Assembly (NCBI RefSeq): GCF_900112865.1
Contig: NZ_FONH01000019.1
Span: 18,430 to 82,429 of the forward strand
DNA from: Dyella marensis
GTDB lineage: Bacteria > Pseudomonadota > Gammaproteobacteria > Xanthomonadales > Rhodanobacteraceae
DNA length: 64,000 nt
Reading direction: 5' to 3'
Numbering within the stretch: position 1 is the first letter of the stretch; each line of letters opens with the position of its first letter. The translations under genes were made by a program, and so were the position numbers. Of this stretch, positions 20,979 through 43,637 are shown piece after piece. Below the pieces are notes generated by a model that was not told the origin of the DNA, did no database searches, and saw only the letters and a list, made by a program, of their open reading frames with translations.

Positions 20979-21062
20979 CGCAGGTTGGGGTGAGCGCGGC
21001 GCACCCCGACGTCGCGGTATCGGCAGGCCTGTTGGGGTTCGCTGTGCTCACCCCAACCTACG
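20979..21062. repeat. REPIN copy A (paired inverted REP hairpins, 84 bp)
   Basis: Two inverted arms about 32 nt long start and end with CGCAG and CTACG. Each arm folds on itself: GTTGGGGT pairs with ACCCC(G/A)AC around a short GC stem. The left arm is the most diverged of the family (foot GCAG, ACCCCGAC), the right arm has the standard form. It lies between the divergent permease and dnaE. Relatives are at 25772, 32247 and 43548. Confidence 0.85.
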
Positions 21063-21146
21063 CGGCTGCGCATAAAACCGCGGAAGTCAATCTTGCCCGC
21101 CTGGGGGGTGCCGGTTAGCCTTCCCGCACTCACCGCGTGAGTCCGC

Positions 21147-24100
21147 ATGACCGTCCGCTTCGCCCACCTCCACCTGCACAGCGAATACTCGCTGGTCGAC
21201 TCGACCATCCGCATCAAAGCGCTGGTCGACGCCTGCGTGCGCGAAGGCATTCCCGCCGTCGCGCTCACCGACGAGACGAACATGTTCGCGCTGGTGAAGT
21301 TCTACAAGGCCTGCAGCGCCGCCGGCATCAAGCCGATCGGCGGCTGCGACCTGTGGCTGTCGATGCCCGACGACCCGCGCCCCTCCCGCGTCACCCTGAT
21401 CTGCCAGAACCGCGACGGCTATCTGAACCTGTCGCGCCTGGTCTCGCGCGTGTGGCGCGAAGGCCAGGGCAGCGGCAAGCCGATGGCCGACGCGGCCTGG
21501 CTCACGCCATCGGCGACTGAGGGCCTGATCGCCCTGGTCGGCCGCGAGAACGAAGTGGCGCGCCTGGCCGTCAACCAGGGCGTCGCCGCGGCCGCCGCGC
21601 GCCTGCGCCCGTTCGCGCGGCTGTTCCAGGACCGCCTGTATCTGGAGCTGACCCGCTGCGGCCGCGAAGGCGAGGAAACCTGGAATGCCGCCGCGCTGGC
21701 GCTGGCCGCCGAGCTCGACCTGCCGGTGATCGCCAGCAACGACGTGCGCTTCCTGCGCCAGGACGATTTCGAATCGCACGAAGCGCGCGTGTGCATCCAC
21801 CAGGGCCGCGTGCTGGCCGACCCCAAGCGTCCGCGCGACTACAGCGACCAGCAGTACCTGAAGACGCCCACGCAGATGGCCGAGCTGTTCGCGGACATCC
21901 CCGAAGCGCTGGAAAACACCGTCGAACTGGCCAAGCGCTGCACCCTGGAACTGAACTTCGGCACCTACTACCTGCCGAACTTCCCGGTGCCGGAAGGCCA
22001 CGACCTGGCCAGCTACATCCGCGAGCTCTCGCACGAAGGCCTGAAGGAACGCCTCGCCAGCAATCCGCTGGCCCCCGGCTATACGCTGGAGGATTACGTC
22101 GCCCGCCTCGACCGCGAGCTGGACGTGATCATCGAGATGGGCTTCCCCGGCTACTTCCTGATCGTGGCGGACTTCATCAACTGGGGTAAGCAGAACGGCA
22201 TCCCGGTAGGCCCGGGACGCGGCTCCGGCGCGGGCTCGCTGGTGGCCTGGGTGCTGAAGATCACCGACCTGGACCCGCTGCCGTTCAACCTGCTGTTCGA
22301 GCGCTTCCTCAATCCGGAACGCGTGTCGATGCCCGACTTCGACATCGACTTCTGCATGGACCGCCGCGACGAGGTGATCGACTACGTCGCGCGCAAGTAC
22401 GGCCGCGACCACGTCAGCCAGATCATCACCTACGGCTCGATGGCCGCGAAGGCGGTGCTGCGCGATTCCGGCCGCGTGCTGGGCATGGGCTACAACGCGG
22501 TCGACAAGATCGCCAAGCTGATTCCCGCGCGCCCGCTCGACCTCACGCTGTCGTGCGCGCTGGGCCGCTCGGAGAAGGCCAAGAAAGAACCCGACCGGGT
22601 GGTCAAGGAATTCTGCGACCTCTACGACCAGGACGAGGAAGCGAAGACGCTGATCGACCTGGCGCTGAGCCTGGAAAACCTCACCCGCAACGCCGGCAAG
22701 CACGCCGGCGGCGTGGTGATCGGCCCCAAGCCCCTGACCGAGTTCGCCCCGCTGTACTGCGAAGCCGGTGGCGGCGGCGTGGTGACGCAGTACGACAAGG
22801 ACGACGTCGAAGCCGTCGGCCTGGTGAAGTTCGACTTCCTCGGCCTGCGCACGCTGACCATCATCGACTGGGCGGTGAAGGCGATCAACGCGCGCCGCGC
22901 AGCCAGTGGCGAGGAGCCGCTGGACATCGCCGCGCTGCCGCTGGACGACGCCGCCACCTACAAGCTGCTGCAGCAGGCCAGGACGGTAGCGGTGTTCCAG
23001 CTCGAATCCTCGGGCATGCAGCGCATGCTCAAGGATGCGCGCGCCGACCGCTTCGAGGACATCGTGGCGCTGGTGGCGCTGTACCGCCCCGGCCCGATGG
23101 ATCTGATCCCCAGCTTCGTCGCGCGCAAGCATGGGCGCGAGGAAGTGCAGTACCCCGACCCGCGCGTCGAGCCGATCCTGAAAGAGACCTACGGCATCAT
23201 GGTCTACCAGGAGCAGGTGATGCAGATGGCGCAGATCGTGGGCGGTTATTCGCTCGGCGGCGCCGACCTGCTGCGCCGTGCGATGGGCAAGAAGAAACTC
23301 GAGGAGATGGCGAAGGAACGCGCCAAGTTCCGCGAGGGCGCCGCCAAGGACGGACTCTCCGGCGAGAAGGCCGACGAGATCTTCGACCTGATGGAGAAGT
23401 TCGCCGGCTACGGCTTCAACAAGTCGCACGCGGCCGCCTACGCGCTGGTCTCGTACCAGACCGCATGGCTGAAGGCGCACTACCCCGCCGAGTTCATGGC
23501 CGCGACGATCTCGTCGGACATGGACAACACCGACAAGGCGGTGACCTTCATCGACGAGTCCAAGGCGATCGGCCTCACCGTGCTGCCGCCGGACGTCAAC
23601 GCGTCGGAGTTCATGTTCGTCGCGGTCGAGCCGAAGGTGATCCGCTATGGCCTGGGCGCGATCAAGGGCGTCGGCCAGGGCGCCTGCGAATCGATCGCCG
23701 AGGAACGCGAACGCGGTGGTCCATACAAGGACTTGGCCGACTTCTGCCGCCGCGTCGACTCCACCAAGCTCAATCGCCGCGTGCTGGAAGCGCTGATCCT
23801 GTCCGGCGCGCTCGATGCGCTCGCGCCGACCCGCGCCAGCCTGATGCTGCAGCTGCCGGATGCGATCAAGGCGGCGGAGCAGCACCTGCGCGACAAGCAG
23901 TCGGGCCAGAACGACATGTTCGGCGCCGCCATGTCGGATAAGAGCGGGGGTACCGTGGCGCCCGTGGTGCAGATCGACCTGCCGACGGCCCCGGAATGGC
24001 CGCTCGAGCAGAAGCTGCAGGGCGAGCGCGACACGCTCGGCCATTACCTCTCCGGCCATCCCACCGATCCCTGGCGCGAGGAGCTGCAGCAGCTCTCCAC

Positions 24101-24716
24101 CTGCCCGCTGGGCGAGATCGCCGACCGCTACCAGCCGCCGCGCCCGCGCAAGGGCGACGACGACAACCGCTTCCGCCGCGGACCCGACACGCCGTGGACG
24201 GTGGCCGGCATGGTCACCGCCATCCGCAAGCGCGGCGAGAGCGATGCCTTCGTGCGCCTGGAAGACGGCACCGGCATCATCGAGGTGAGTTTCTTCGGCG
24301 AGCTGTACCAGCAGGTCGCCCCGCTGCTCACCCGCGACGAAATCCTGGTGGTCGAGGGTGGCCTGCGCATCGACGACTTCTCCGGCGGCGGCTTCGCCGT
24401 GCGCGCCCGCAGCGCGCACACCCTGGCCGACGCCTGCCGCCGCTTCGCGCGTGTGCTGCATGTGAAGCTGAACGGGGTCGGCCCCGGCTTCGTCGACCAG
24501 TTGCGCCAGATCCTGGCCGGCTACCGCAACGGCCGCACCAGCGTGGTGCTGCACGGCTACCACAACGCCATCGCCCAGGCCGACCTGGAGCTGGGCGACG
24601 CGTGGCGGGTCGAGGCCATCCCGGAGCTGCTGCGCGCCGTGCGCGCGGTGCCCGGGGTGCAGGCGGCCAGGCTGCGCATCGTTAAGACCGACGACCGCCC
24701 CTCGCGCGGCGACTGA
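21147..24716 (+). CDS. dnaE: DNA polymerase III alpha subunit
   Basis: DnaE is the replicative polymerase catalytic subunit, acting with beta clamp and epsilon in the holoenzyme. The 1189-residue product begins with the PHP domain (FAHLHLHSEYSLVDSTI). The C-family palm carries GPGRGSGAGSLVAWVL and the catalytic Asp pair in PDFDIDFCMD near residue 400. Fingers and the KSHAAAYALVSYQTAWLK segment lie near 760. A helix-hairpin-helix region and an OB fold (WTVAGMVTAIRKRGESDAF) near 1010 follow. Length and order are normal for gammaproteobacterial DnaE. It is followed by accA, as in many relatives. Confidence 0.98.
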   Translation: MTVRFAHLHLHSEYSLVDSTIRIKALVDACVREGIPAVALTDETNMFALVKFYKACSAAGIKPIGGCDLWLSMPDDPRPSRVTLICQNRDGYLNLSRLVSRVWREGQGSGKPMADAAWLTPSATEGLIALVGRENEVARLAVNQGVAAAAARLRPFARLFQDRLYLELTRCGREGEETWNAAALALAAELDLPVIASNDVRFLRQDDFESHEARVCIHQGRVLADPKRPRDYSDQQYLKTPTQMAELFADIPEALENTVELAKRCTLELNFGTYYLPNFPVPEGHDLASYIRELSHEGLKERLASNPLAPGYTLEDYVARLDRELDVIIEMGFPGYFLIVADFINWGKQNGIPVGPGRGSGAGSLVAWVLKITDLDPLPFNLLFERFLNPERVSMPDFDIDFCMDRRDEVIDYVARKYGRDHVSQIITYGSMAAKAVLRDSGRVLGMGYNAVDKIAKLIPARPLDLTLSCALGRSEKAKKEPDRVVKEFCDLYDQDEEAKTLIDLALSLENLTRNAGKHAGGVVIGPKPLTEFAPLYCEAGGGGVVTQYDKDDVEAVGLVKFDFLGLRTLTIIDWAVKAINARRAASGEEPLDIAALPLDDAATYKLLQQARTVAVFQLESSGMQRMLKDARADRFEDIVALVALYRPGPMDLIPSFVARKHGREEVQYPDPRVEPILKETYGIMVYQEQVMQMAQIVGGYSLGGADLLRRAMGKKKLEEMAKERAKFREGAAKDGLSGEKADEIFDLMEKFAGYGFNKSHAAAYALVSYQTAWLKAHYPAEFMAATISSDMDNTDKAVTFIDESKAIGLTVLPPDVNASEFMFVAVEPKVIRYGLGAIKGVGQGACESIAEERERGGPYKDLADFCRRVDSTKLNRRVLEALILSGALDALAPTRASLMLQLPDAIKAAEQHLRDKQSGQNDMFGAAMSDKSGGTVAPVVQIDLPTAPEWPLEQKLQGERDTLGHYLSGHPTDPWREELQQLSTCPLGEIADRYQPPRPRKGDDDNRFRRGPDTPWTVAGMVTAIRKRGESDAFVRLEDGTGIIEVSFFGELYQQVAPLLTRDEILVVEGGLRIDDFSGGGFAVRARSAHTLADACRRFARVLHVKLNGVGPGFVDQLRQILAGYRNGRTSVVLHGYHNAIAQADLELGDAWRVEAIPELLRAVRAVPGVQAARLRIVKTDDRPSRGD

Positions 24717-24754
24717 AGCCATCCCGCCGGCGCCCGGCAAGCCATACGGCCCCG

Positions 24755-24784
24755 TTCTCGCCTTTTCCGCCGCCCCGGTATACT
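24755..24784 (+). promoter_or_regulatory. Possible promoter of accA
   Basis: TATACT at 24779-24784 with a weak -35 TTCTCG (24755-24760, spacing 18) lies in the 98-bp dnaE-accA gap. It would give a leader of about 24 nt. The -10 is good, the -35 poor. Confidence 0.4.
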
Positions 24785-24814
24785 GCGCGGCTTCCGTGTC
24801 CCGACTAGCACCGA

Positions 24815-25771
24815 ATGAACCCGAACTTCCTCGATTTCGAACAACCCATCGCCGAACTGGAAGCGAAGATCGAAGAGCTTCGCCACGCCAGCCACGGGCA
24901 GGCGTTCAATATCGAGGACGAGGTCGTCCGGCTGCGCGAGAAGCTGAAGATCAAGACCGCGGAAATCTTCCGCAATCTCAGCTCCTGGCAGATCACCCAG
25001 CTGTCGCGCCACCCGGCCCGCCCCTACACGCTGGACTACATCAGCGTGATCTGCGAGGAGTTCCACGAGCTGGCCGGCGACCGCGCCTACGCGGACGACG
25101 CCGCCATCGTGGGCGGCATCGGCCGCATCAACGGCCGCTCGGTGGTGATCATCGGCCACCAGAAGGCACGCGATACCAAGGGCAAGGTGCGCCGCAACTT
25201 CGGCATGCCGCGCCCGGAGGGCTACCGCAAGGCGCTGCGCCTGATGAAGCTGGCCGAGCGCTTCAAGCTGCCCCTGCTGACCCTGATCGACACCCCCGGC
25301 GCCTACCCCGGCGTCGGCGCCGAGGAGCGCGGCCAGAGCGAGGCGATCGCGCGCAACCTGCTGGAAATGGCCGACCTGCGCGTGCCGATCGTGTGCACGG
25401 TGATCGGCGAAGGCGGCTCCGGCGGCGCGCTGGCCATCGGCGTGGGCGACCGCACGGTGATGCTGCAGTACTCCACCTATTCGGTGATCTCGCCCGAAGG
25501 CTGCGCCTCGATCCTGTGGAAGAGCGCCGACAAGGCCAAGGACGCTGCCGAGGCGCTGGGCCTCACCGCGCCGCGCCTGCTGGAGCTGGGCCTGATCGAC
25601 AAGCTGGTGCGCGAGCCGCTGGGCGGCGCCCACCGCAATCCGCATTCGATGGCGGTGCGCCTGAAGGCCGTGCTGCTCAACCAGCTCGACGAGCTGGAAG
25701 CATTGCCGATCGATGAGCTGCTGCAGCAGCGGTATCAGCGGCTGCGCGGGTACGGCGCCTATACCGAATAA
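24815..25771 (+). CDS. accA: Acetyl-CoA carboxylase carboxyltransferase subunit alpha
   Basis: AccA with AccD transfers the carboxyl group from biotin to acetyl-CoA, making malonyl-CoA for fatty acid synthesis. The 318 residues include the N-terminal helical part ([19 protein letters not shown]), then [31 protein letters not shown], the crotonase-fold active-site segments [21 protein letters not shown] and [14 protein letters not shown], and [11 protein letters not shown]. Length equals E. coli AccA within one residue. A REPIN begins at the base after its stop codon. Confidence 0.98.
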
Positions 25772-25860
25772 CGTAGGTTGGGGTGAGCCGCAGGCGAACC
25801 CCAACGGGCCTCTCACATCGATGTGCCTGTTGGGGTTCGCTGCGCTCACCCCAACCTACG
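25772..25860. repeat. REPIN copy B (89 bp) directly after accA
   Basis: The left arm 25772-25805 and the right arm 25829-25860 are inverted REP hairpins with GTAG at each outer foot. The left arm folds as GTTGGGGT (25777-25784), GA, GCC, loop GCA, GGC, GA, ACCCCAAC (25798-25805). The right arm has a shorter GC-GCA-GC tip. The 23-nt spacer holds a perfect palindrome CACATCGATGTG (25814-25825). The element touches the accA stop codon and precedes the NYN gene by 51 bp. Confidence 0.92.
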
Positions 25861-25911
25861 CCGCGCAATCATGGCGCTATGATCCCCCGGCCCATTCCGC
25901 CGGAGGCCGCC

Positions 25912-26664
25912 ATGGCCAGCGACAGCACCAAGCTCGCCGTCCTGATCGATGCCGACAACGCGCAGCCGAATCTCGCCGAAGCCCTGCTCGCCGAAGTGGC
26001 CAAGTACGGCACCGCGCACGTCAAGCGCGCCTACGGCGACTGGACCAGCCATCACCTGAAGACCTGGAAAGAGCAGCTGCTCACCCAGTCGATCCAGCCG
26101 ATCCAGCAGTTCGGCTACACCAGCGGCAAGAACGCCACCGACTCGGCGATGATCATCGATGCGATGGACCTGCTGTACTCGGGCCGCTTCGACGGCTTCT
26201 GCATCGTCTCCAGCGACAGCGACTTCACCCGCCTGGCCGCGCGCATCCGCGAGTCGGGGCTGATTGTGTACGGCTTCGGCGAGCGCAAGACGCCCGATCC
26301 CTTCGTCGCGGCCTGCGACAAGTTCATCTACACCGACATCCTGGTCGCCAAGCCCGACGAGGAAGCGCCGCTGAAGCCGCGCGGCGCCACCCAGCTCAAG
26401 CAGGACAGCGGCCTGGTGAACCTGCTGCGCAACGCGGTGGAAGCCGCTTCGGACGACGATGGATGGGCCGGACTCGGAGGCGTGGGTTCCATCATTACCA
26501 AACAGCGGCCGAATTTCGATGCGCGCAGCTATGGCTACAGCAAGCTCAGCGAGTTGATCGCTGCCACCGCGCTGTTCGACATAGAACGCCGCAGCCCCGG
26601 CGAAGGCCGGCCGAAAGTGATCTACGTGCGCGACAAGTCGAAGAAATCCGTAGCTCGTGAGTAG
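25912..26664 (+). CDS. NYN-domain (PIN-like ribonuclease fold) protein with C-terminal OST-HTH/LOTUS domain
   Basis: The 250-residue product has an N-terminal NYN domain: LAVLIDADNAQ with acidic residues, TDSAMIIDAMDLLYSG, and the strand FCIVSSDSDFTRLA with the DSD acidic cluster. These fit a metal-dependent nuclease fold related to LabA/DUF88 and MARF1. The C-terminal part (about 165-245: GLVNLLRNAVEAA, DDDGWAGLGGVGSII, SYGYSKLSELI, VIYVRDK) is an OST-HTH RNA-binding domain. I choose the ATG at 25912 behind GGAGG (25902-25906). The target RNA is unknown. It overlaps tilS by 8 bp. Confidence 0.85.
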   Translation: MASDSTKLAVLIDADNAQPNLAEALLAEVAKYGTAHVKRAYGDWTSHHLKTWKEQLLTQSIQPIQQFGYTSGKNATDSAMIIDAMDLLYSGRFDGFCIVSSDSDFTRLAARIRESGLIVYGFGERKTPDPFVAACDKFIYTDILVAKPDEEAPLKPRGATQLKQDSGLVNLLRNAVEAASDDDGWAGLGGVGSIITKQRPNFDARSYGYSKLSELIAATALFDIERRSPGEGRPKVIYVRDKSKKSVARE

Positions 26665-27976: not shown

Positions 27977-28009
27977 TTCCGGACGGTCGCTGCGTTAATT
28001 TTTCCGGCC

Positions 28010-28267
28010 ATGGCCAAGCCTGCTCCCTCCCCCGCCGAACCCGCTTCTCCCGCCGATTTCGAACATTCGCTGGACGAGCTCGAGCAGCTGGTGGCGCGCA
28101 TGGAAGGCGGCGACCTGAGCCTGGACGATTCCCTGGCTTCGTTCGAACGCGGCATCGGCCTCTACCGGCATTGCCAGCAGGCGCTGGAACAGGCCGAACT
28201 GCGCGTGAGGCTGCTGCTCGATCCTGAAGCCCCCGACAGCGCAGAACCGTTTGAACCCGAACTTTGA
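28010..28267 (+). CDS. xseB: Exodeoxyribonuclease VII small subunit
   Basis: XseB binds XseA to form the single-strand-specific exonuclease VII. The 85-residue product has a Pro/Ala-rich N-terminus and then the family core [37 protein letters not shown]. It overlaps ispA by 17 bp, the classic xseB-ispA pairing. Dxs, the usual third gene, is not here. Confidence 0.95.
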
Positions 28268-29144
28268 TCTAGGTCCGGCGCTCAGGGCGTTGATCGCCCG
28301 CGCCGACCAGGCCCTGGCCCGGGCCCTCCCCGCCGAAGACCGCTCCCCCGCCGAACTGCACCGCGCCATGCGCTATGCCGTGCTGGGCGGCGGCAAGCGG
28401 CTGCGCCCGCTGCTGGTGTATGCGGCCGGCCACGCTTTGGGCGAGGACGGCGACGCGCTCGATGCGCCGGCCTGTGCGGTGGAACTGATCCACGCCTACT
28501 CGCTGGTGCACGACGACCTGCCGGCGATGGACGACGACGACCTGCGCCGCGGCCGCCCCACCTGCCACGTGGTGTTCGGCGAGGCGATGGCGATCCTGGC
28601 CGGCGACGCCCTGCAGGCGCTGGCCTTCGAACTGCTGGCCAACGACGCCGGCGCCGACGCCTCGCGCTGCGTGGCGATGCTGCGCACGCTGGGCCGCGCC
28701 TGCGGCGCCGAAGGCATGGCCGGCGGACAGGCGCTGGACCTGGCCGCGGTCGGCCACCCGCTCAGCCTGGCCGAGCTGGAACACATGCACGCCTGCAAGA
28801 CCGGCGCGCTGATCCGCGCCTCGGTCCGGCTCGGCGCGCTCGCCGCGACGGCGGACCCATCCGCGCTGGATGCGCTGGACCGCTACGCCCACGCCGTGGG
28901 CCTGGCCTTCCAGGTGCGCGACGACATCCTCGATGTCGAGGGCGAGTCCGCGGTGATCGGCAAGACCGCCGGCAAGGACGCGGCCGCCGACAAGCCGACC
29001 TTTCCCTCGATCATCGGCCTGGACGCCTCGCGCGCGCGGCTGGACGAGCTCACCGCCACGGCGCTGGAGGCGATCGCCGCGCTGGGCGAACGCGGCGCCC
29101 TGCTGGAGCGGCTGGCGCTGTACGCGGCCAGGCGCCACCACTGA
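28251..29144 (+). CDS. ispA: Farnesyl diphosphate synthase (geranyltranstransferase)
   Basis: IspA makes C15 farnesyl diphosphate from IPP and DMAPP, feeding UppS (7761). Both aspartate-rich motifs are present: [14 protein letters not shown] near residue 85 and [12 protein letters not shown] near 222. [28 protein letters not shown] and the [13 protein letters not shown] helix also match. The most upstream start is TTG at 28251 inside xseB (297 residues). A second TTG at 28290 is possible, so the exact N-terminus is unsure. Confidence 0.95.
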
Positions 29145-29651: not shown

Positions 29652-29754
29652 GCGTGCTCTCCTGGCCATGCGGTGATCCGGCCTCGGTGCCGGTGGCGCC
29701 GATGCTAGCAAGGGCTGCGACGGTTTGCCGAGCCAACCGTAGACCTAGCGTCAG

Positions 29755-29933
29755 CCCTCACGTTGGAATCCTTCTCCCGCCGGGAGCACGCGGGGAGCGC
29801 ACATGGATGTGCGCGGCTCTGAGGAGCGAGGAAGGTGCCGGCAGGCGGATGAGGGTTCGGCCGGAGTCGTGAACATCACTTCCGCGCTCCGCCCGTACCC
29901 TCACCCCAACCCCTCTCCCGGCGGGAGAGGGGC
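29755..29933. repeat. Palindromic intergenic repeat region beside pmbA
   Basis: The left element has nested inverted repeats: CCCTCA (29755-29760) with TGAGGG (29850-29855), CCTTC (29770-29774) with GAAGG (29831-29835), and a central perfect palindrome GCGCACAT-GG-ATGTGCGC (29797-29814). The right part is a 10-bp stem CCCCTCTCCC/GGGAGAGGGG (29910-29919 with 29923-29932). From memory this kind of CCCTCACCCCAACCC-plus-stem sequence recurs between genes in many proteobacteria. It could also end pmbA transcription. Confidence 0.6.
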
Positions 29934-29945
29934 TCAAGCGAAAGC

Positions 29946-31715: not shown

Positions 31716-32246
31716 GTGAATCGCACCTATACCGACGACCCCGATCACGACTACGGCCCGACGCGCACGCAGCAGCGCCGCGATGCGCTGGCCGTGCTCG
31801 AGCTGGCCCAGCAGCTGGTGGACCTGCCGCCGAGCCGCCTGGCCAAGCTCGACCTGCCGGAGGACGTGCTGCGCGAGATCGCCAACACGCGCAAGATCAC
31901 TTCGCACATCGCGCGCAAGCGCCAGCTCGGCTTCCTCGCCAAGACCATGCGCAAGCACGACAGCGAGGTCTTCGACGGCGTGCGCGCCGCGCTGGGCGAG
32001 AACCGCGAGCGCCAGCGCCAGGAAACGGCGGCGATGCATCGCCTGGAAGCGACCCGCGACAGGCTGCTCGACGACGAGGACAACGCACTGCCGCAGCTGA
32101 TCGCCACCTATCCGCAGCTCGATCGCCAGCACCTGCGCTCGCTGCTGCGCCAGGCGCGGCTGGAGCGCGAGAAGAACAAGCCCCCGCGCGCGTACCGCGA
32201 GATTTTCCAGCTGCTGAAAGACCTGGCCGCAGCGGGCGACGAGTGA
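31716..32246 (+). CDS. darP: Ribosome-associated protein DarP (YjgA, DUF615)
   Basis: DarP (YjgA) associates with late 50S assembly intermediates in E. coli. The GTG start at 31716 gives 176 residues (VNRTYTDDPDHDYGPTRTQQRR). Family hallmarks: LVDLPPSRLAKLDLP, LREIANTRKITSHIARKRQL, and the C-terminal LRSLLRQARLEREKNKPPRAYREIFQ. In E. coli yjgA and pmbA are also divergent neighbours, which supports the call. A REPIN starts at the base after its stop. Confidence 0.95.
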   Translation: MNRTYTDDPDHDYGPTRTQQRRDALAVLELAQQLVDLPPSRLAKLDLPEDVLREIANTRKITSHIARKRQLGFLAKTMRKHDSEVFDGVRAALGENRERQRQETAAMHRLEATRDRLLDDEDNALPQLIATYPQLDRQHLRSLLRQARLEREKNKPPRAYREIFQLLKDLAAAGDE

Positions 32247-32336
32247 CGCAGGTTGGGGGGAGCCAAAGGCGAACCCCAACGTTGCGACCCACCTGCACGC
32301 CAGTTGGGGTTCGCCTTTGGCTCACCCCAACCTACG
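32247..32336. repeat. REPIN copy C (90 bp) between convergent darP and tldD
   Basis: This is an inverted pair of REP hairpins with GCAG (left) and GTAG (right) feet. Both tips read GCC-AAA-GGC, unlike the GCA loops of copies B and D, so the two arms share their variant loop. The element begins directly after the darP stop codon and ends 6 bp before the tldD stop codon. Confidence 0.92.
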
Positions 32337-35164: not shown

Positions 35165-38100
35165 TCAGCGCGCCGAGCTGCTCGCCGGCGCCGGTGCGGT
35201 GAGGGGTGCGGGAGCCGTGGACGACGCGGCTTCCGCGGCGGAGAGGTTCTTCTTCTCCACCAGCGAAATATCCGGCTTATCCCAGCTGCCGCCGATGTGA
35301 TAGCGCGCGCTGGCCACGCGGTTGAGACCGCGTCCGAGCAGTCCCTGCGCGACGAAACCCGCGGCCGCGCCGAGCGGCCCGGCCACCACCGCGCCGACGA
35401 TCGGCAGGCTGCTGCCCAGATGCGGGATCACCAGCGCCTGCTGGTCGTAGTCCTTCGCGCGCAGGCCGGTGCGCCCCTTGATATTGATCTCCGCCGCCGG
35501 TCCGCGCATGGACAGGTTGTTGGTGGTGGCGTTGCCGTCGGCCAGCACGAAGTCGCCGGTGATCGAGTCGAACGCCAGCCCCTTGCCGAACACGTCGCCG
35601 AAATCCAGGGTCAGGCGGCGCGGCAGCTCCACCAGCGACACCAGGCCGAACAGACGGCCTACGCCGGGGGCGACCTCGGGAATGCTGCCGTCGGTAACCT
35701 GGATGCCGAGCTTGCCGTCCATGTTGGCCAGCTCCATCGCCGACGGCGCGCCGGGCCAGGTGGCGTCCAGGTGCGCGCGCGTCTTGCCGCCGTTGAACAG
35801 GCCGGCGAAGCCGAACGCGCCGAGCATGTCGCCGAGGTTTTCCGCGGCGAAATCGATGCGCAGATGGCTGCGGCTGCTGGTCGCCGTGCCGTCCCAGTCG
35901 CCGCTGCCGTTGATCTGCACGCTGCGCGACTGCGCGCGCAGCTGGTCGATATGCAGGCCGCGGTCGGTCGGCCAGGTTTCCAGGCGCGCCTCGCCGAGCC
36001 TGGATTCGCCGAAGCGCAGGTCGCCGACCCAGAGGTGGAACGGCGGCAGGGACGATGGCGTGATGCCGGTGTTGGCCGGATCGGTCTTCGGCGGGTCGCC
36101 GGGATTGGTCTTGGCGTCGCTGGAGCGGCCGCTGGTCTTGGGCCAATACAGCCGCTGCAGGCGTGCGGTGACGCCGCGCTTGTCGAGATCGTCGGTGGGC
36201 ACGATGAAACGCCCGACGATATCCGCGCTGTCCACGTCCACGTTCAACTGCCCGCTCTCCGGCGCGGCCTGGATGCGCATCGACGGAAACGGATGGCCGA
36301 ACAGCTCGGCCTGGTCCGCGCTCACGTCGATGCTCTCCAGCCCCGGCCCGCCGGTGCTGCTGCCGGCCACGGCGCGCTGCACCCAGCCGGTGACGTCCAT
36401 GCGCGCGGCGCGCCCGCGCACGCGGATGCCCTTGTCCGGCACGGTGTCGGGCATGCGCGTGCCGAAGGCGAAACTCGCGGCCAGCGGGCGCTTGTCGTCA
36501 GGCAGGCGGAAGCGCTGGCGCATCACCTGGCCCAGCGCGATCTGCAGGTCGCCGCCCGACACCGGCAAGGTCAGCGCCAGGTGCGTCGGCAGGCTGGCGT
36601 CGGCGGATTTCTTCAGCGGCGCCGGCAGGTCCAGCGCCATGCCGGCGAAGTTGGTGTCCAGGGTCAGCAGCTGCGCGGCATTGGCCACGGTGTCCGGGCG
36701 CACGATGTCGAAGCCCACGGTGGTGTCGCTGCGGCCGCTGGCGACGTCTTTCAGCCAGTCCAGCTGGGACAGTCCCTGCACCAGCTCGGCCATGCCGTAG
36801 CGGCCGCTGAGGCGCGCGGAGAACTCGGTGTCCGGCCGGCCGGTGGCGCCGGCGATGGCGATGTCCAGCTTGGACGGCTGGCCGCGGAATACGGTGTCCA
36901 GCGCCCCGGCGCGGAAGCCGTGCCCGTCGAAGCTCGCCTGGCCGCTGATCTTGTCGAGCTTGAGGTTCCAGTCCGGCGCGTTGAGGTCGACGTCCTTCAG
37001 GTCGGTAGTGCCGTTGAGGAAGAATTCCCTGGCGTTGTTCATCGGCAGCGAGAGATGGAAATCGAAGGTGCCGGCGCCGCCCAGGCTGAGCTTGTTGAGG
37101 GTGTCGGCCTGGCGGCTGCCGATCGGGCTGTGCTTGACGAAATCCATCAGGCTGGCGCCGCTGCCGGAGCCGTGCACGTTGAGGTCCAGCACGGTATGGG
37201 CCAGATCCGGAATCACCGCCACCGCCCGCTCGGTCTTCACGCCCAGCGATTCGCCGCCGCTGGCTTCGACCAGCATGCTGTTGTTGACGAAGTTGGCGAC
37301 CGCGTCGATACCCTCGGCGCGCGGCCAGTTCCTGCCGTAGTCCAGGCTCAGCCCGCTGAGCTCGGCGCGGGCTTCGAAGCGGCCTTCGTTGGCGTGGAAC
37401 GGCCAGTCCTTCAGGTCGCCGCGCACCAGCATGTCGCTGCGCTCGATCTTGCCGGCGACCAGCGCGCGGTCCAGCCATTCGATCGCCTGCGGCGACATGG
37501 AATCGATCGGCCAGAACAGCTTGGCCGCATCCATGTCGGCGTGGTCGAGCATGGCGTACAGATCGAGGAAAGGACGTCCGCCCGCATCGGGCAGACGGAT
37601 CTCGCCGCGCGCCTGCCCGCCGAAGCCCGCGCCGACGAAGTCCAGCGGCTCGATGCCGAGATGCCAGTCGCCGTCCTCATGCCATGCCGCGATATCGCCT
37701 GCCAGGCGCGACAGCGCGAAGGGCTTGCGGAAGGTACGCGGGAACCGCAGCACGGTGGCCTGCGGCGGCAGCTCGACCGACAGCGCGCCAGCGTCGCCGC
37801 GCAGCACGCCGTCGAGACGGTCGATGCCGGGCAGCTTGCCCACCGCGTCGATGCCCAGGCCGCTGAAGCCGACATTGGCGCTGGCCAGGCCGTCGGCACG
37901 CGTCCAGCGCAGCGCCACCTGGCCGAGCTTGCCGCGCGGCTTGCCGGTGCCCAGCCACTGCGCCATGCCCGGCGACAGCTCGGGCTTGAGCGCTGCCCAC
38001 GGCGCCAGCGCGCCGAGCTGCAGGTCGCGCGCCGCGATCAGCGCCTCGTCGGCATGGCCGTCGGCGCCGTTGTGCACGTCCAGTACCAGCGCGCCGCCGT

Positions 38101-39031
38101 CGTCCGCACCCCAGCGCACGCGCAAACCCTGCGCGGTCTTGTTCATGTCGCCCAGCGCATGCAGCGAGGCCACCCGCGCCTGGTGTCCCGCGGGATTGGT
38201 CAGTGCCAGTCCGTCGAGGTCGAGGCGGGTGAGGTTGCGCACCACTTTCGCGTCGCGCCAGTCCAGCCAGCTGGCGAACGTACCGTTGCCGCTGTCCACC
38301 GTATAGCCGCCCAGGTCGATGCCCGCGGCGAAGGCGCGCAGGTCCACCTTGCTGCCGGCGATCCACAGCCGGCCGTCGGCGCCGTCCTCGCGGAAGTTGC
38401 CGGCGCCGCGCAGCTCGCCGGCCACGCCTTCGCGCTGCAGGATCGCGCCGACGCGCACGCGGCCGCCCTGCCGGCTCACACGCAATTGCCTGGCCAGCAG
38501 CGCGTAATGCTTGCCGGTGGTTTCGTCGGCGATGTCCAGGCGCAGGTCGCGCAGCCACAGCTCGACCGACAGGCGGCCGAACGAAGGATTCTGGCGCTCG
38601 CCGCCGCCGGCCACGCCGATGCCGTTGACGTGCCAGCTGCCGTCCTTGCCGCGCGCCAGGTCCAGTTGCATGCCGCGCACGCGCAGGTTGACCAGGTGGC
38701 GCGCCGGCATCAGCCAGCCGCCAAGATCCAACTTCAGTTCCGTCTCCGGAATGCTCAGCGCGCTTTCGCCCGGGCCCGCGGCCACCACCGTATTGCGCAT
38801 CACGAACAGCGGGCCGGACGGTTCCCAGCGCCCTTCCAGCGAGGCGAACGAGACCGGCCGCTCCAGCAGCCGGCTCAGCTGCGCCGCCACCCATTGCGGA
38901 TGGCTGGCCAGGGTCGGCAGCAGCAGCTGGATCAGCCCGGCGAGCACGGCCAGGCTGATCACGGACACGCCCAGCACCCAGCCCAATGCGCGGGCGATCC
39001 GGTGCAGGCGCTGGCGCACGGAAACGTTCAC
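35165..39031 (-). CDS. yhdP: YhdP, AsmA-like phospholipid transport protein
   Basis: YhdP is an inner-membrane-anchored protein spanning the periplasm that helps move phospholipids to the outer membrane (with TamB and YdbH in E. coli). The 1288-residue product has one N-terminal membrane segment (VLGVSVISLAVLAGLIQLLL). A long beta-rich periplasmic part follows, with the AsmA-like C-terminal segment (MRGPAAEINIKGRTGL, LVIPHLGSSLPIVGAVVAG). The start is GTG at 39031. It is 24 bp after rng on the same strand, the rng-yhdP-tldD order of E. coli interrupted only by the hydroxylase. Confidence 0.93.
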   Translation of the reverse strand: MNVSVRQRLHRIARALGWVLGVSVISLAVLAGLIQLLLPTLASHPQWVAAQLSRLLERPVSFASLEGRWEPSGPLFVMRNTVVAAGPGESALSIPETELKLDLGGWLMPARHLVNLRVRGMQLDLARGKDGSWHVNGIGVAGGGERQNPSFGRLSVELWLRDLRLDIADETTGKHYALLARQLRVSRQGGRVRVGAILQREGVAGELRGAGNFREDGADGRLWIAGSKVDLRAFAAGIDLGGYTVDSGNGTFASWLDWRDAKVVRNLTRLDLDGLALTNPAGHQARVASLHALGDMNKTAQGLRVRWGADDGGALVLDVHNGADGHADEALIAARDLQLGALAPWAALKPELSPGMAQWLGTGKPRGKLGQVALRWTRADGLASANVGFSGLGIDAVGKLPGIDRLDGVLRGDAGALSVELPPQATVLRFPRTFRKPFALSRLAGDIAAWHEDGDWHLGIEPLDFVGAGFGGQARGEIRLPDAGGRPFLDLYAMLDHADMDAAKLFWPIDSMSPQAIEWLDRALVAGKIERSDMLVRGDLKDWPFHANEGRFEARAELSGLSLDYGRNWPRAEGIDAVANFVNNSMLVEASGGESLGVKTERAVAVIPDLAHTVLDLNVHGSGSGASLMDFVKHSPIGSRQADTLNKLSLGGAGTFDFHLSLPMNNAREFFLNGTTDLKDVDLNAPDWNLKLDKISGQASFDGHGFRAGALDTVFRGQPSKLDIAIAGATGRPDTEFSARLSGRYGMAELVQGLSQLDWLKDVASGRSDTTVGFDIVRPDTVANAAQLLTLDTNFAGMALDLPAPLKKSADASLPTHLALTLPVSGGDLQIALGQVMRQRFRLPDDKRPLAASFAFGTRMPDTVPDKGIRVRGRAARMDVTGWVQRAVAGSSTGGPGLESIDVSADQAELFGHPFPSMRIQAAPESGQLNVDVDSADIVGRFIVPTDDLDKRGVTARLQRLYWPKTSGRSSDAKTNPGDPPKTDPANTGITPSSLPPFHLWVGDLRFGESRLGEARLETWPTDRGLHIDQLRAQSRSVQINGSGDWDGTATSSRSHLRIDFAAENLGDMLGAFGFAGLFNGGKTRAHLDATWPGAPSAMELANMDGKLGIQVTDGSIPEVAPGVGRLFGLVSLVELPRRLTLDFGDVFGKGLAFDSITGDFVLADGNATTNNLSMRGPAAEINIKGRTGLRAKDYDQQALVIPHLGSSLPIVGAVVAGPLGAAAGFVAQGLLGRGLNRVASARYHIGGSWDKPDISLVEKKNLSAAEAASSTAPAPLTAPAPASSSAR

Positions 39032-39055
39032 CGGCGGCTCTCGCCGCGCGGTGAA

Positions 39056-40549
39056 CTAGAGGAGAACCACATCGAACTGTTCCTGCGAATAATGCTCTTC
39101 GGCCTGGAAGCGTATGCTCTTGGAGATGAACTCTTCCAATTCGGCCACGGCCACCGATTCCTCTTCGAGGATGCGGCCGACCACCTTCGGGCTGGCCATT
39201 ACCAGCAGTTTTTCCGCGTTGAACTGACGCACCGCGCGGGTGATCTCGCGGAAGATCTCGTAGGTCACCGTCTCGGCGGTCTTCACCGCGCCACGGCCGC
39301 CGCAGGCAGGGCACGGCTCGCACAGCTGGCGTTCCAGGCTTTCGGTGGTGCGCTTGCGCGTCATCTCCACCAGGCCCAGCGCGGACATCGGATACACCGT
39401 GGTCTTGGCGTGGTCGCGCTGCAGGCCTTTTTCCAGCATGCGCAGCACCTGGCGCTTGTGCTCCTCGTCGGTCATATCGATGAAGTCGATGATGATGATG
39501 CCGCCGAGGTTGCGCAGCCGCAGCTGGCGCGCCGCAGCCTGCGCGGCTTCGAGATTGGTGCGATAGACGGTCTCTTCCAGGTTGCGCGTGCCGAGGTAGC
39601 CGCCGGTGTTGACGTCGATCGTGGTCATCGCCTCGGTCTGGTCGACGATCAGGTAGCCGCCGGATTTCAGCGGCACTTCTTTCTTCAGCGCGCGCTGGAT
39701 CTCGTCTTCCACGCCGTACAGGTCGAAGATCGGGCGTTCGCCCGAATAGTGCTCGACGCGGTCGTCCAGGCTGGGCATGAACTTGTGCACGAACTTGACG
39801 ACCTTCTCGTAGGTCTCGCGCGAATCCACCCGCACCTTCTCGATGTCGTCGTTGAGCATGTCGCGCAGGCTGCGCAGCGGCAGCGAGAGTTCCTCGTAGA
39901 CGCGCTCGCCGACCTTGGACTTGGCGATGTTCTCCTGCACCACGCGCCACACCTTGCCCAGGTAGGTGACGTCGAAGGCGAGCGACTCGGCGGTCTGCTC
40001 CTCGGCGTTGGTGCGCACGATGTAGCCCAGCGGGTTCTCGCCGATCAGCGAGGTCATCACCTCTTTCAGGCGCTGGCGCTCGGCCTCGTCCTCGATGCGC
40101 GCGGAAATGCCCAGCGTGCGCGCATGCGGCAGCAGCACCAGGTAGCGCGACGGGATGGACAGATGGGTGGACAGCCGCGCGCCCTTGGTGCCGATCGGGT
40201 CCTTCACCACCTGGACCACGATCTCCTGCCCTTCATGCACCAGCTCGGTGATCGACGGCGTGGGGCCGTTGCCGGCTGGTACCACGACCGCCTCGGCGCC
40301 TTCGGCGACCACCGGCAAGGGCGGACGCACGATGTCGGAGGCGTGCAGGAACGCCGCGCGCTCCAGGCCGATATCGACGAACACCGCCTGCATGCCCGGC
40401 ATCACGCGCTGCACGCGACCCTTGTAGACATTGCCCACATAGCCGCGGCGGGAGGCTCGCTCGACATGCACTTCCTGCAGCATGCCGTTTTCCACCACGC
40501 CGACGCGGGTTTCGCGCGGCGTCACATTGATCAGAATCTCTTCACTCAC
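39056..40549 (-). CDS. rng: Ribonuclease G
   Basis: RNase G is an endoribonuclease that processes the 16S rRNA 5' end and some mRNAs. The 497-residue protein starts with GTG at 40549 behind GGGGAG. It has the N-terminal S1 domain (RRGYVGNVYKGRVQRVMPGMQAVFVDIG). The RNase E/G catalytic domain carries the Asp-containing TIDVNTGGYLGTRN and IIIDFIDMTDEEHK. The zinc-link motif CEPCPACGGRG follows. It lacks the long C-terminal scaffold of RNase E, so the G assignment is safe. Confidence 0.96.
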   Translation of the reverse strand: MSEEILINVTPRETRVGVVENGMLQEVHVERASRRGYVGNVYKGRVQRVMPGMQAVFVDIGLERAAFLHASDIVRPPLPVVAEGAEAVVVPAGNGPTPSITELVHEGQEIVVQVVKDPIGTKGARLSTHLSIPSRYLVLLPHARTLGISARIEDEAERQRLKEVMTSLIGENPLGYIVRTNAEEQTAESLAFDVTYLGKVWRVVQENIAKSKVGERVYEELSLPLRSLRDMLNDDIEKVRVDSRETYEKVVKFVHKFMPSLDDRVEHYSGERPIFDLYGVEDEIQRALKKEVPLKSGGYLIVDQTEAMTTIDVNTGGYLGTRNLEETVYRTNLEAAQAAARQLRLRNLGGIIIIDFIDMTDEEHKRQVLRMLEKGLQRDHAKTTVYPMSALGLVEMTRKRTTESLERQLCEPCPACGGRGAVKTAETVTYEIFREITRAVRQFNAEKLLVMASPKVVGRILEEESVAVAELEEFISKSIRFQAEEHYSQEQFDVVLL

Positions 40550-40573
40550 CGAACACTCCCCTCTCGGAGGGTC

Positions 40574-40602
40574 TTTATAGCGGCTGGGCGGACGGGCGTC
40601 GA
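40574..40602 (-). promoter_or_regulatory. Promoter of the rng-yhdP unit
   Basis: On the minus strand TCGACG (40597-40602) and TATAAA (40574-40579) are spaced by 17 bp. Transcription would start about 18 nt before the rng start codon. The rest of the 176-bp gap up to 40725 shows nothing recognisable. Confidence 0.6.
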
Positions 40603-40725
40603 TGCGCCAGTGCGCAGCCCGCCAACCCCGTCGTGCCAGCGCCCGCCACCGGACCGGCCGGCGCGGAAGCTGCGTTCCCTCAGACAGGACCGGCGGGTGC
40701 GGGGTTCACGCCGGAACGCCGCCGG

Positions 40726-41832
40726 CTAGGGCCCGGCCGCCGGTGCCGGGCCGCCGGCCGGCGCGTCGTCGGGTTCGCGCTCCCACTGGATCCGGGTGCG
40801 CGGGAGGTACTGGGGATATTCGCGCTGGACGAAGGCGATCAGCCCTTCGCGGATGCGGCAGCGCAGGTCCCAGCCCTGGCCGGAGTCGGCCGAGCTGACC
40901 AGGGCGCGCAGTTGCATGGCGCGGTCGCCGGCGTCGACCACCTGCAGCACGCAGACGCGGCGGTCCCATTCCCTGGCCTCCTCGCACAGGCGCTCCAGCT
41001 CGGCGCGCAGGGGCGGCACGGGCAGGCGGTAATCGACCCACAGGAATACCGTGCCGATCAGCTGGGAGCTGCGGCGCGTCCAGTTCTCGAACGGGTTCTC
41101 GATGAACCAGTTCAGCGGCACCACCAGCCGGCGCTCGTCCCAGATGCGCACCACCACGTAGGTGCCGGTGATCTCCTCGATGCGGCCCCATTCGCCCTTC
41201 ACGATCACCACGTCGTCCAGCCGGATCGGCTGGGCCAGGGCGATCTGCAGGCCGGCGATCAGGTTGCTCAGCACCGGCTTGGCGGCGATGCCCAGCGCCA
41301 GGCCGGCAAGGCCGGCCGAGGCCAGCAGGCTGGCGCCGAACTGGCGCACCCCGGGGATGGTCATCAGCACCGCAGCCAGGCCGGCCAGGATGAACAGCAC
41401 CATGGTCGAGCGGCTGAGCACCCGGACCTGGGTGACTACGCTGCGGGCGCGCAGGTTGTCGGCCTGGTCGACCGGGTGCAGGCGGATCACCAGGTCTTCC
41501 AGGGCGCCGATGCAGCGCACTACCAGCCAGGTGAGGGTGGCGATCAGCGCCACCAGCAGCGCATGGTGGAGATCGCCCATCAAGCGCAGCGACTCCACAT
41601 CCGGCGTGACGCGCAGCGCCACCGACACGGTCAGCAGCGGCACCAGCCATTCCATCGGCGCATTGGCGCGGCTGACCATGCCGTAGGCAGCCGGATGCCG
41701 GCGCGACAGCCGCCGCAGCACGGCGCGCGCCACGCGGCGCAGCACGAAGGCCAGCGCCAGCGCGACCGCCACCGTGATGCCGAGGCGGCCAAGCAGATGG
41801 TCGTTCCAGAAAGCGGCGAAGTCGGTAGCCAT
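40726..41832 (-). CDS. MscS-family mechanosensitive ion channel
   Basis: The 368-residue inner-membrane protein has an N-terminal amphipathic start, about four hydrophobic segments, then the pore-lining helix region ASLLASAGLAGLALGIAAKPVLSN, rich in Ala and Gly as in MscS TM3. The cytoplasmic beta domain follows (QPIRLDDVVIVKGEWGRIEEITGTYVVVRIWDERRLVVPLN). The C-terminus ends in a Pro/Ala-rich tail. It probably releases solutes on osmotic downshock. It is divergent from the Dph6-like gene. Confidence 0.9.
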   Translation of the reverse strand: MATDFAAFWNDHLLGRLGITVAVALALAFVLRRVARAVLRRLSRRHPAAYGMVSRANAPMEWLVPLLTVSVALRVTPDVESLRLMGDLHHALLVALIATLTWLVVRCIGALEDLVIRLHPVDQADNLRARSVVTQVRVLSRSTMVLFILAGLAAVLMTIPGVRQFGASLLASAGLAGLALGIAAKPVLSNLIAGLQIALAQPIRLDDVVIVKGEWGRIEEITGTYVVVRIWDERRLVVPLNWFIENPFENWTRRSSQLIGTVFLWVDYRLPVPPLRAELERLCEEAREWDRRVCVLQVVDAGDRAMQLRALVSSADSGQGWDLRCRIREGLIAFVQREYPQYLPRTRIQWEREPDDAPAGGPAPAAGP

Positions 41833-41945
41833 GCGCGATCGGGGGGAGCAGGTCCGCGGCGAGGTCGCGCCCCACCCTGCCGCAGGCCATGTTCACGTCG
41901 CGTGGTCTGGATATGAACGGACGCGGCTGCCGTTAAAGTACGGCG

Positions 41946-42635
41946 ATGCAAACCACGCCCATCCTGCTGGCCTGGAGCGGCGGCAAGGACTGCCTGCTGG
42001 CCCTGCAAGCCCTGCTGCGCGAGCCGCGCTGGCAGGTGGTGGGCCTGCTGTGCACGGTCAACCGCACCTACCAGCGCGTGGCCATGCACGGCACGCGCCG
42101 CGAGGTGCTGCAGGCCCAGGCGCGGGCGCTGGGCCTGCCGCTGCTGGAGGCTGAGCTGGACTGGCCCAGCGGCAACGAGGACTACGAGGCCGCGCAGGCG
42201 CGCGCCCTGGCCGAGGCGCGCATGCACTGGCCCGGCGTGCGGCATTGCGCATTCGGCGACCTGTTCCTGGCCGACGTGCGCGACTACCGCGTGCGCCAGC
42301 TCGGCGCCTTGAGCTGGCGCGCGGTGTTTCCGCTGTGGGGCGAGGACACCGCCGCGCTGGCGCGGCGCTTCGTCGGCGAAGGCCATCGCGCGGTGCTGTG
42401 CTGCGTGGATACGCAGCAGCTCGATGCCGCGTGGTGCGGCCGTCCGTTCGACAACGCGCTGCTGGATACGCTGCCCACCGGCGTCGATCCCTGCGGCGAG
42501 CGCGGCGAGTTCCACACGCTCAGCTATGGCGGGCCGCTGTTCCGCCATCCGCTGGCGCTGCGGCGCGGCGAATCCACGCTGCGCGACGGGCGCTTCCAGT
42601 ACACCGATTTCCTGCTTGCCGATGCCGCGCACTGA
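41946..42635 (+). CDS. Dph6-like PP-loop ATP pyrophosphatase domain protein
   Basis: The 229-residue product opens with the PP-loop SGGKDCLLALQALL at residues 11-24. It also has CTVNRTYQRVAMHG, DWPSGNEDYEAA, CAFGDLFLADVRDYR and the diagnostic GVDPCGERGEFHTLSYGGPLF. This is the diphthine-ammonia-ligase (Dph6) domain pattern. Bacteria do not make diphthamide, so the real substrate is unknown; an adenylating amidation or thiolation of RNA or a small molecule is possible. It overlaps the following Mug-like gene by 14 bp, so the two are likely co-translated. Confidence 0.85.
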   Translation: MQTTPILLAWSGGKDCLLALQALLREPRWQVVGLLCTVNRTYQRVAMHGTRREVLQAQARALGLPLLEAELDWPSGNEDYEAAQARALAEARMHWPGVRHCAFGDLFLADVRDYRVRQLGALSWRAVFPLWGEDTAALARRFVGEGHRAVLCCVDTQQLDAAWCGRPFDNALLDTLPTGVDPCGERGEFHTLSYGGPLFRHPLALRRGESTLRDGRFQYTDFLLADAAH

Positions 42636-43155
42636 GCCGGCGCACATCCTGCCCGACCTGCTGCAGCCGGGGCTTGCGCTGGTGTTCTGCGGCACCGCCG
42701 CGGGCAGGCGCTCGGCGGCCGAACAGGCCTACTACGCGCATCCGGGCAACATGTTCTGGCGCGCGCTGCACGCGTCCGGCCTCACCCCGCGCCTGCTGGC
42801 GCCGGCCGAATATCCGCTGCTGCCCGGCTACGGCCTGGGCCTCACCGACGTGGCCAAGCTGCACGCCGGCAACGACGACGAACTGCCGCGCGACGCCTTC
42901 GACGTGCCGGCGCTGCGCGCCAAGATCGAACGCTACGCGCCCGCCCTGCTCGCCTTCACCAGCAAGGCCGCGGCGCGCGCCGCGCTGGGCCGCGCGGCCG
43001 GCTACGGCCTGCAGCCGGAGACCTTCGGCGCAAGCCGGCTGTTCGTGCTGCCGTCGCCGTCCGGGCAGGCGCGCGGGCACTGGGACCTGGCGCCATGGCT
43101 GGAGCTGGCGGCGCAGGTGCGCGCCAGCGTTGCCCATGGCCGTCCGGGTGCGTAG
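42622..43155 (+). CDS. Mug-like (uracil/mismatch) DNA glycosylase
   Basis: The 177-residue protein belongs to the uracil-DNA glycosylase superfamily, Mug/TDG type. LVFCGTAAGRRSAAEQAYYAHPGNMFWRALHASGLTPR is the active-site region near residues 17-55 (cited here only in part: motif VFCGTAAG, then PGNMFW), GYGLGLTDVAKLHAG follows, and LPSPSGQARGHW is the C-terminal base-flipping loop. E. coli Mug has GINPG and NPSG at these places, so the catalytic-site Asn is replaced by Thr/Ala and the loop Asn by Ser. Substrate range may differ. The start at 42622 is inside the end of the Dph6-like gene. Confidence 0.82.
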   Translation: MPRTEPAHILPDLLQPGLALVFCGTAAGRRSAAEQAYYAHPGNMFWRALHASGLTPRLLAPAEYPLLPGYGLGLTDVAKLHAGNDDELPRDAFDVPALRAKIERYAPALLAFTSKAAARAALGRAAGYGLQPETFGASRLFVLPSPSGQARGHWDLAPWLELAAQVRASVAHGRPGA

Positions 43156-43185
43156 GGTGCGGTTCTTCCCAAGGAGGACCTGACC

Positions 43186-43533
43186 ATGCTCAAAGGCAGC
43201 TGCCACTGCGGCGCGATCACCCTGGAAGTCGACGCCGCGCCGCCCGAACAGGCGATGGAATGCAATTGCTCGCACTGCAGTCGCAAGGGTTATCTGCTGT
43301 GGTTCGTGCCGCGCGAATCGGCCCACGTGCATGCTGCGGACGGCCAGGTCGGCGTCTATCACTTCAACAAGCATGCGATCGCGCACCACTTCTGCAAGCA
43401 GTGCGGCTGCGCGCCGTTCGCCCTGGGCACCGCGCCGGACGGCACGGCGATGACGGCAGTGAATGTGCGTTGCCTGGAAGGGATCGACCTGGCGGCCATC
43501 AAGCGCATTCCGGTGGACGGGCGCAGCTTCTGA
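43186..43533 (+). CDS. GFA family zinc-binding protein
   Basis: This 115-residue protein has the fold of glutathione-dependent formaldehyde-activating enzyme (GFA/CENP-V). Zinc-binding cysteines appear as SCHCGAI, ECNCSHCSRKG and FCKQCGCAPF. A full Shine-Dalgarno AAGGAGG (43171-43177) lies 8 bp before the ATG. The role of small stand-alone GFA proteins is not established. It is the last plus-strand gene before a REPIN and convergent cytochrome genes. Confidence 0.88.
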   Translation: MLKGSCHCGAITLEVDAAPPEQAMECNCSHCSRKGYLLWFVPRESAHVHAADGQVGVYHFNKHAIAHHFCKQCGCAPFALGTAPDGTAMTAVNVRCLEGIDLAAIKRIPVDGRSF

Positions 43534-43547
43534 TCGGCGACACATGA

Positions 43548-43637
43548 CGTAGGTTGGGGTGAGCCGCAGGCGAACCCCAACAGCCGTCGCGGGATGCAGG
43601 CATGTTGGGGTTCGCCTGCGGCTCACCCCAACCTACG
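43548..43637. repeat. REPIN copy D (90 bp) between convergent GFA and cytochrome genes
   Basis: The two inverted REP hairpins are identical copies of each other: GTAG foot, GTTGGGGT/ACCCCAAC stem, GA/GA internal loop, GCC-GCA-GGC tip. A 22-nt spacer separates them. It begins 14 bp after the GFA stop and ends 6 bp before the cytochrome stop, filling the convergent gap. It is the best-preserved copy of the family here. Confidence 0.93.

Follow-up and report, generated by a model that had tools for sequence, protein, structure and literature searches.

Paired palindromes of a Dyella marensis REPIN family, its single RAYT, and sites shared with a sister species under changed spacers

A stretch of 64,000 nucleotides from Dyella marensis (contig NZ_FONH01000019.1, positions 18,430 to 82,429; hereafter the window) contains four paired palindromes with a GTAG-type foot. 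This locus raises the question of what these elements are, which enzyme might spread them, and what has become of their sites in related species. With a probability of roughly 0.87, we read them as REPINs, i.e., hairpin-forming doublets of repetitive extragenic palindromic (REP) sequences. These are non-autonomous; the one REP-associated tyrosine transposase (RAYT) of the genome, an HuH enzyme of the TnpA_REP type, is predicted to recognise them in single-stranded form and to move them in trans. In the same reading, the sites shared with the sister species would be inherited, the two arms of an element would tend to correct each other, and the tip between them would be rewritten and sometimes inverted. 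Hundreds of copies, one RAYT with REP flanks, and presence/absence variation support the original prediction of a REP family moved by a RAYT, while its comparison with the SMAG repeats of Stenotrophomonas is refined below; we infer both the RAYT-driven movement, from sequence, and the cause of the spacer change. The family is a new instance of the known REPIN/RAYT system, an ordinary and well-preserved one of the Escherichia coli type whose site history is unusually easy to read.

The genome to which the window belongs (G000, with the window on its contig C42) was compared with other members of the genus, giving six species (G000 to G005) with one genome per species. G001 is the sister species Dyella sp. 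SG609, whose contig C9 (NZ_JAAZQJ010000009.1) bears its RAYT locus. All four predicted palindrome pairs could be read and aligned in the window, each consisting of two inverted GTAG-tagged REPs on either side of a spacer of 20–23 nt. The individual spacers measure 20, 23, 22 and 22 nt, which narrows the predicted range of 19–23 nt. The parts of the elements are as follows:

20980..21010, plus strand: left REP of element 1, foot GCAG, loop GCG, inner half mutated
21011..21030, no strand: spacer of element 1, 20 nt
21031..21061, minus strand: right REP of element 1, inverted, foot GTAG, loop ACA
25773..25805, plus strand: left REP of element 2, foot GTAG, loop CGCAG; the TAA of the upstream gene ends at 25771
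25806..25828, no strand: spacer of element 2, 23 nt
25829..25859, minus strand: right REP of element 2, inverted, foot GTAG, loop GCA
32248..32280, plus strand: left REP of element 3, foot GCAG, loop CAAAG; the TGA of the upstream gene ends at 32246
32281..32302, no strand: spacer of element 3, 22 nt
32303..32335, minus strand: right REP of element 3, inverted, foot GTAG, loop CAAAG
43549..43581, plus strand: left REP of element 4, foot GTAG, loop CGCAG, no mismatch to the commonest unit
43582..43603, no strand: spacer of element 4, 22 nt
43604..43636, minus strand: right REP of element 4, inverted, foot GTAG, loop CGCAG

The outer foot is GCAG at the left end of elements 1 and 3 and GTAG at the remaining six ends, in line with the two variants predicted. 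From the foot inwards, an arm reads GTTGGGGT, GA and GC, a loop of 3–5 nt, then GC, GA and ACCCCAAC, and the second arm is an inverted copy of this unit; elements 1 and 3 depart from this plan by a few substitutions. Element 1, whose left inner half reads GCGCACCCCGAC, is the most decayed of the four. The motif GGTTGGGGTGAGC, with at most two mismatches, has 10 matches in the window, eight of which are the eight arms, versus a shuffle mean of 2.24, and none of 100 shuffles reached 10. For GTTGGGGTTCGC, with at most one mismatch, there are seven matches versus 0.37 in shuffles. Folded as single-stranded DNA, each of the four whole elements forms one hairpin, with z scores of −6.1 to −14.7 relative to shuffles. 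A single 33-nt unit folded in the same way gives two short stems separated by an unpaired 2×2 step (an internal loop), which by sequence is GA opposite GA.

A strict pattern search of the whole genome returned 471 REP units and none for the reversed-pattern control, so the expectation of several hundred copies per genome was borne out. In the order G000 to G005, the six species have 471, 334, 20, 0, 5 and 0 units, and two of them, those with 471 and 334 units, have a RAYT over the family cut-off. Strict units were counted within the bacterial family: at least one GTTGGGG unit occurs in 39 of 233 genomes and a RAYT over the cut-off in 120 of 233. More than 50 units are found in only three of the 233 (G000, G001 and G090, the last with 91), all of which have a RAYT over the cut-off.

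The anatomy of the population was read in 837 kb of the D. marensis genome, window included, where 137 raw REP hits were obtained and the 119 with at most two mismatches were counted as REPs. These form 55 head-to-head pairs, as against one '+-+' and one '-+-' cluster, and no tandem pairs occur in the 837 kb. The pair foot is GTAG in 50 of 55 on each side; among the raw hits it is GTAG in 114, GCAG in 10 and something else in 13, eight of the latter being AGGG from another repeat. Spacer lengths cluster at 21–23 nt and at 26 nt. When oriented, the 26-nt spacers form one family, with a column majority of 0.67 versus 0.41–0.42 in shuffled data, and the short class reaches 0.60–0.68 versus 0.48–0.53. 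In 31 of 55 elements the loops of the two arms are identical, versus 13.4 under permutation and a maximum of 22 in 5000 permutations. One pair of elements at unrelated sites has identical spacers, and the sister species lacks a REP at both sites, which is the state that a recent copying event would leave. The idea of insertion into pre-existing palindromes was also considered and dropped because the left and right flanks do not co-vary (summed pairs at positions 2–8: 125 versus 139 permuted); a weak CCGGC is common to the outer flanks beside the foot.

The genome encodes a single RAYT of 176 aa (contig C20, positions 117637–118167), the sole match to NCBIfam NF047646, the REP-associated tyrosine transposase family (187 bits, cut-off 80). 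It is located on a contig other than that of the window, which bears out the noted absence of a RAYT gene from the window. Alignment to E. coli TnpA_REP (PDB 4er8, 7e-45) reaches residue 161 of 165, including the final Gly-Glu, and the HxH motif, the tyrosine region, the IWQ..(F/Y)WEH.IR stretch and the C-terminal-tail Gly-Glu are retained. The residues that contact the GTAG foot were assigned after PMC8266576, and those named there, C-terminal Gly-Glu included, are present in the alignment. The prediction that such a gene should be flanked by the family's own REP passed its test: the one RAYT has the same REP on both sides, in inverted orientation, in D. marensis and likewise in the sister species. 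In both genomes a REP ends 8 nt ahead of the RAYT ATG, and the foot of the following REPIN supplies its TAG as the RAYT stop codon.

The RAYT of the sister species has the same neighbours and arrangement and is 79% identical in protein sequence. The last 355 matched bases of the upstream gene, which we take from its translation to be nrdB-like, are 94.9% identical between the two species. In G002, the same two neighbour genes flank about 205 bases without a RAYT. More distant matches to the RAYT family, below the cut-off, are found at G003:C6:866333-866689 and G005:C1:888209-888535, the latter with internal stop codons. In both species, the REP immediately ahead of the RAYT gene (L002:2597-2629 and its counterpart in L003) carries the loop TGAAA, a loop present in no other unit of the 837 kb counted, and it may be a fixed regulatory copy.

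Similarity to TnpA_REP, the C-terminal extension that contacts GTAG, and the interrupted REP stem indicate, from alignment and stem structure, that the RAYT belongs with group 2, the E. coli type. The E. coli REP/TnpA_REP system (group 2, subclass 2.2) shares with the present one the GTAG foot, a two-base mismatch interrupting the stem, and a single REP-flanked RAYT. It differs in the stem, which here is GTTGGGGT with GA opposite GA, in the two spacer length classes found here, and in the genus. The REPINs of Pseudomonas fluorescens SBW25, as presented in PMC3116915, are also inverted REP doublets with a less conserved spacer, a RAYT nearby and hairpin folding; they belong to a different REP family, and it is the sister-species comparison that showed shared sites with changed, once inverted, spacers here. 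The SMAG repeats of Stenotrophomonas, a related Gram-negative genus, are likewise GTAG-tagged, mostly dimers, and present in many copies (GTAG families 6–9; PMC3733652). According to the respective papers, RAYT-flanking REPs of Stenotrophomonas are perfectly complementary palindromes with 2–4 middle bases (PMC2817692) and the transposase falls into group 3 (PMC8266576), whereas the present stem, interrupted by GA opposite GA, is no perfect palindrome. SMAG is not the closest kin, because both the protein (7e-45 to TnpA_REP) and the interrupted REP are of the E. coli type described in PMC8266576.

The GTTGGGG stem had been thought possibly undescribed for the genus, and no description of REPs or RAYTs of Dyella or Rhodanobacteraceae was found among the titles and abstract openings listed from the openly licensed literature. 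The stem itself is not genus-specific, being found beside related RAYTs of many genera. Of 578 RAYT loci found, the best 80 named ones were oriented and a hairpin was sought within 160 bases, which placed the GTTGGGG stem beside the gene in 22 of these 80. Such RAYT/REP pairs occur, for example, in Rhodanobacter, Candidatus Accumulibacter and Chlorobium records, with loops that differ by genome. Related RAYTs among the best 80 adjoin REPs built to the same plan, the stem being altered in many of them, and some loci have no such hairpin within 160 bases. This pattern agrees with the RAYT–REP pairing published in PMC2817692.

Since the collections hold one genome per species, presence and absence of copies were compared between sister species, and the predicted variation was found at that level instead of among strains. 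We matched 390 of 685 D. marensis gene gaps to the sister species, which has a REP in 25 of the 44 gaps occupied in D. marensis and in four of the 346 that are empty there; part of the sister sequence was chosen by the flanks of D. marensis elements, irrespective of its own content, which inflates the share of occupied D. marensis gaps in this comparison. For the site-by-site analysis, 52 of the 55 pairs (at most three mismatches per arm) were used, 41 of which could be mapped to the sister species and 17 to G002. In the sister species, 18 of the 41 pairs face a pair, four a single REP, two a half element, and 17 nothing alike; in G002, no REP is present at 15 of the 17 mapped sites and a single REP at two. 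Among the window elements, element 2 faces a pair in the sister species, element 4 no REPIN, and element 3 a lone collapsed palindrome, beyond which about 1.9 kb of other DNA follow; element 1 is not judgeable because its flanks lie on different contigs of that genome. The sister-species sites opposite the window element at 43549 and opposite C18:65197 and C13:33678 of D. marensis hold another palindromic repeat with CGTCATCCCGGCGCAGGCCGGGATCC.

The shared sites allow the elements to be compared arm by arm. At the 18 pair-to-pair sites, loop length is equal in 34 of 36 arms, versus 18.0 under permutation (p = 5e-5), and both exceptions belong to the RAYT's own 3' element. Arm by arm, most shared sites therefore resemble a single old insertion seen in both species, and judging from these sequences they are likely inherited by descent from before the species split. 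Among the 22 shared sites, the left boundaries are at most three bases apart in 10 cases and the right boundaries in 11, so that indels of small size must be common around the elements. The spacers behave differently from the loops: only two of the 18 are recognisably alike (at least 0.75 identical) between the two species. Of these, one matches at 0.77 when read in the same direction, and the other, inverted between the two species, at 0.96. No description of spacer inversion at shared sites was found among the titles and abstract openings listed from the openly licensed literature.

In a long form of the element (L002:5521-5695; L267-L286), the loop of the right arm contains a hairpin-rich payload of about 75 nt. 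This form is not seen in the window. The payload has 28 hits in D. marensis, some of them partial or at contig ends, and 14 in the sister species, whereas the remaining four species have none; an Rfam search of the payload region gave nothing up to E 1. We read 34 distinct payload copies, 28 of which have a readable spacer. In these 28, payload stretches of 92 nt are 0.936 identical on average and the adjacent spacers 0.596, and of 112 copy pairs whose payload stretches are at least 0.95 alike just one has spacers that are at least 0.8 alike. Automatic labelling put spacers of 25–27 nt in one orientation with respect to the payload in at least 10 copies and in the reverse orientation in at least five, and the shorter spacers of the long form likewise occur both ways. 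Either the payload is under selection or the spacer changes unusually fast; in either case, the two orientations require a flipping step. The long form represents an enlarged-loop element that is still able to reach many copies.

These patterns would fit the following course of events. The RAYT would recognise the folded REP strand and spread the doublet, cutting and transferring the strand at the GTAG foot by analogy with E. coli TnpA_REP as measured by others. Once inserted, the element would behave as a long palindrome whose hairpin persists, so that arm-to-arm copying within the hairpin could produce the matched loops. Spacer inversion and rapid change could result from exchange or cutting at the tip. 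SbcCD is a candidate tip-cutting enzyme. As a tentative and rather doubtful extension, REPINs may be self-correcting palindromes: the site is kept for the age of the species and the arms copy-correct each other in the folded hairpin, while recurrent cutting, rewriting and flipping of the tip let the spacer outpace neutral DNA and the payload in the loop of one arm is preserved.

How far the spacers need a process of their own is the point on which this account is most closely challenged, as they could be plain unconstrained intergenic DNA with nothing special at the tip, a view to which we give a little less than an even chance. The 24-mers flanking the 18 shared sites also diverge between the two species, to mean identities of 0.69 and 0.66, and spacers are known from PMC3116915 to be less conserved than REPs. 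Measured in the same way, however, the spacers fall to 0.54; they are less conserved than the better flank at 16 of the 18 sites and than both flanks at 10, while fourfold-degenerate sites of the two genomes are 0.815 identical. The nearly unchanged but inverted spacer and, in the long form, the payload kept beside dissimilar spacers also argue against mere lack of constraint. Exchange of the whole site occupant, by gene conversion or re-insertion, would equally leave differing spacers at shared sites, as seen at 16 of the 18, and the RAYT's own 3' REPIN, in which both loops and the spacer length changed together, looks like such a case; the D. marensis spacer at C15:121499 is moreover 0.88 like that of another site in the same genome. 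Whole exchange would scramble the loops, though, and the loop-length test speaks against it for 17 of the 18 sites. Left/right order is also kept at the three sites with mixed loop lengths, spacers at shared sites are slightly more alike than those between different sites (0.55 versus 0.51, permutation p = 0.016), and the spacer length class agrees at 12 of 18 sites versus 7.1 permuted (p = 0.014). We regard general exchange of occupants as quite improbable.

A different alternative, which we consider unlikely although somewhat less so than wholesale exchange, is that the elements are mainly gene-end devices of the host, such as bidirectional terminators or stabilisers of mRNA 3' ends, held by selection and mobile in the past. 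Location was judged with gene calls in which the third codon position is the least conserved in 250 of 250 aligned genes. Convergent gaps hold 29 of the 50 elements lying between two genes, while merely 99 of 581 gaps are convergent, and the distance from the element to the 3' end of a neighbouring gene is no more than 21 nt in 61 of 76 cases. All but one of 51 placed elements are extragenic, the exception being inside a called gene, and 13 of 76 neighbouring genes end exactly in the TAG of the foot. The near-perfect arms, with 91 of the 119 REPs free of any mismatch, and the many sites common to the two species would also suit a host function. The same location bias is, however, expected if insertions into genes and promoters are purged; the sister species has no REP in 19 of the 44 gaps occupied in D. 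marensis, and G002, with its 20 units in all, lacks one at the 15 mapped sites noted above. Location bias and TAG donation are already known for GTAG REPs from PMC3733652, and stop-codon donation by the foot was accordingly dropped as a novelty.

Several observations weigh against the reading of these elements as inherited REPINs moved by the RAYT. The comparisons are between species whose genes are about 91% identical, with one genome each, and no movement has been observed. Both boundaries fall at the same base in just one of the 22 shared sites, and empty sites are seldom clean, as the neighbouring intergenic DNA also changes; junctions can for this reason not be fixed to the base. No second pair with identical spacers was found among 53 D. 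marensis elements, which means either that copying has seldom happened recently or that spacers change fast. G002 and G004 have 20 and five units, respectively, and neither genome has a RAYT over the cut-off. Finally, the D. marensis RAYT itself scores slightly below the Pfam Y1_Tnp cut-off (21.6 versus 23).

Because the RAYT and hundreds of elements survive in the two sister species and not in the four others, the history can be read site by site and the genus offers a test bed for REPIN evolution. One published approach to REPIN transposition rates (PMC8049555) assumes that copying and mutation balance each other in setting the mutation classes that surround a master sequence. If it is true that the arms are corrected within the element, as the matched loops suggest, rate estimates of this type would be biased.

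Other features were noted in and around the window. A separate intergenic repeat of about 190 bp with inverted ends of the CTCTCCCG type occupies window positions 29750–29940; segments of it recur at dozens of places in the sister species, and the orthologous site has merely 5–49 other bases in the five remaining species of the genus. The only Rfam match in the window is a t44 RNA at 4159–4259 on the plus strand (68.3 bits). Outside the window, at about bases 218–308 of contig C42, lies a further dispersed repeat with TTGGTTACTTTTGCTTTGGGCCAGCAAAG, which matches about 20 places in the sister species among the matches listed and many in G002.

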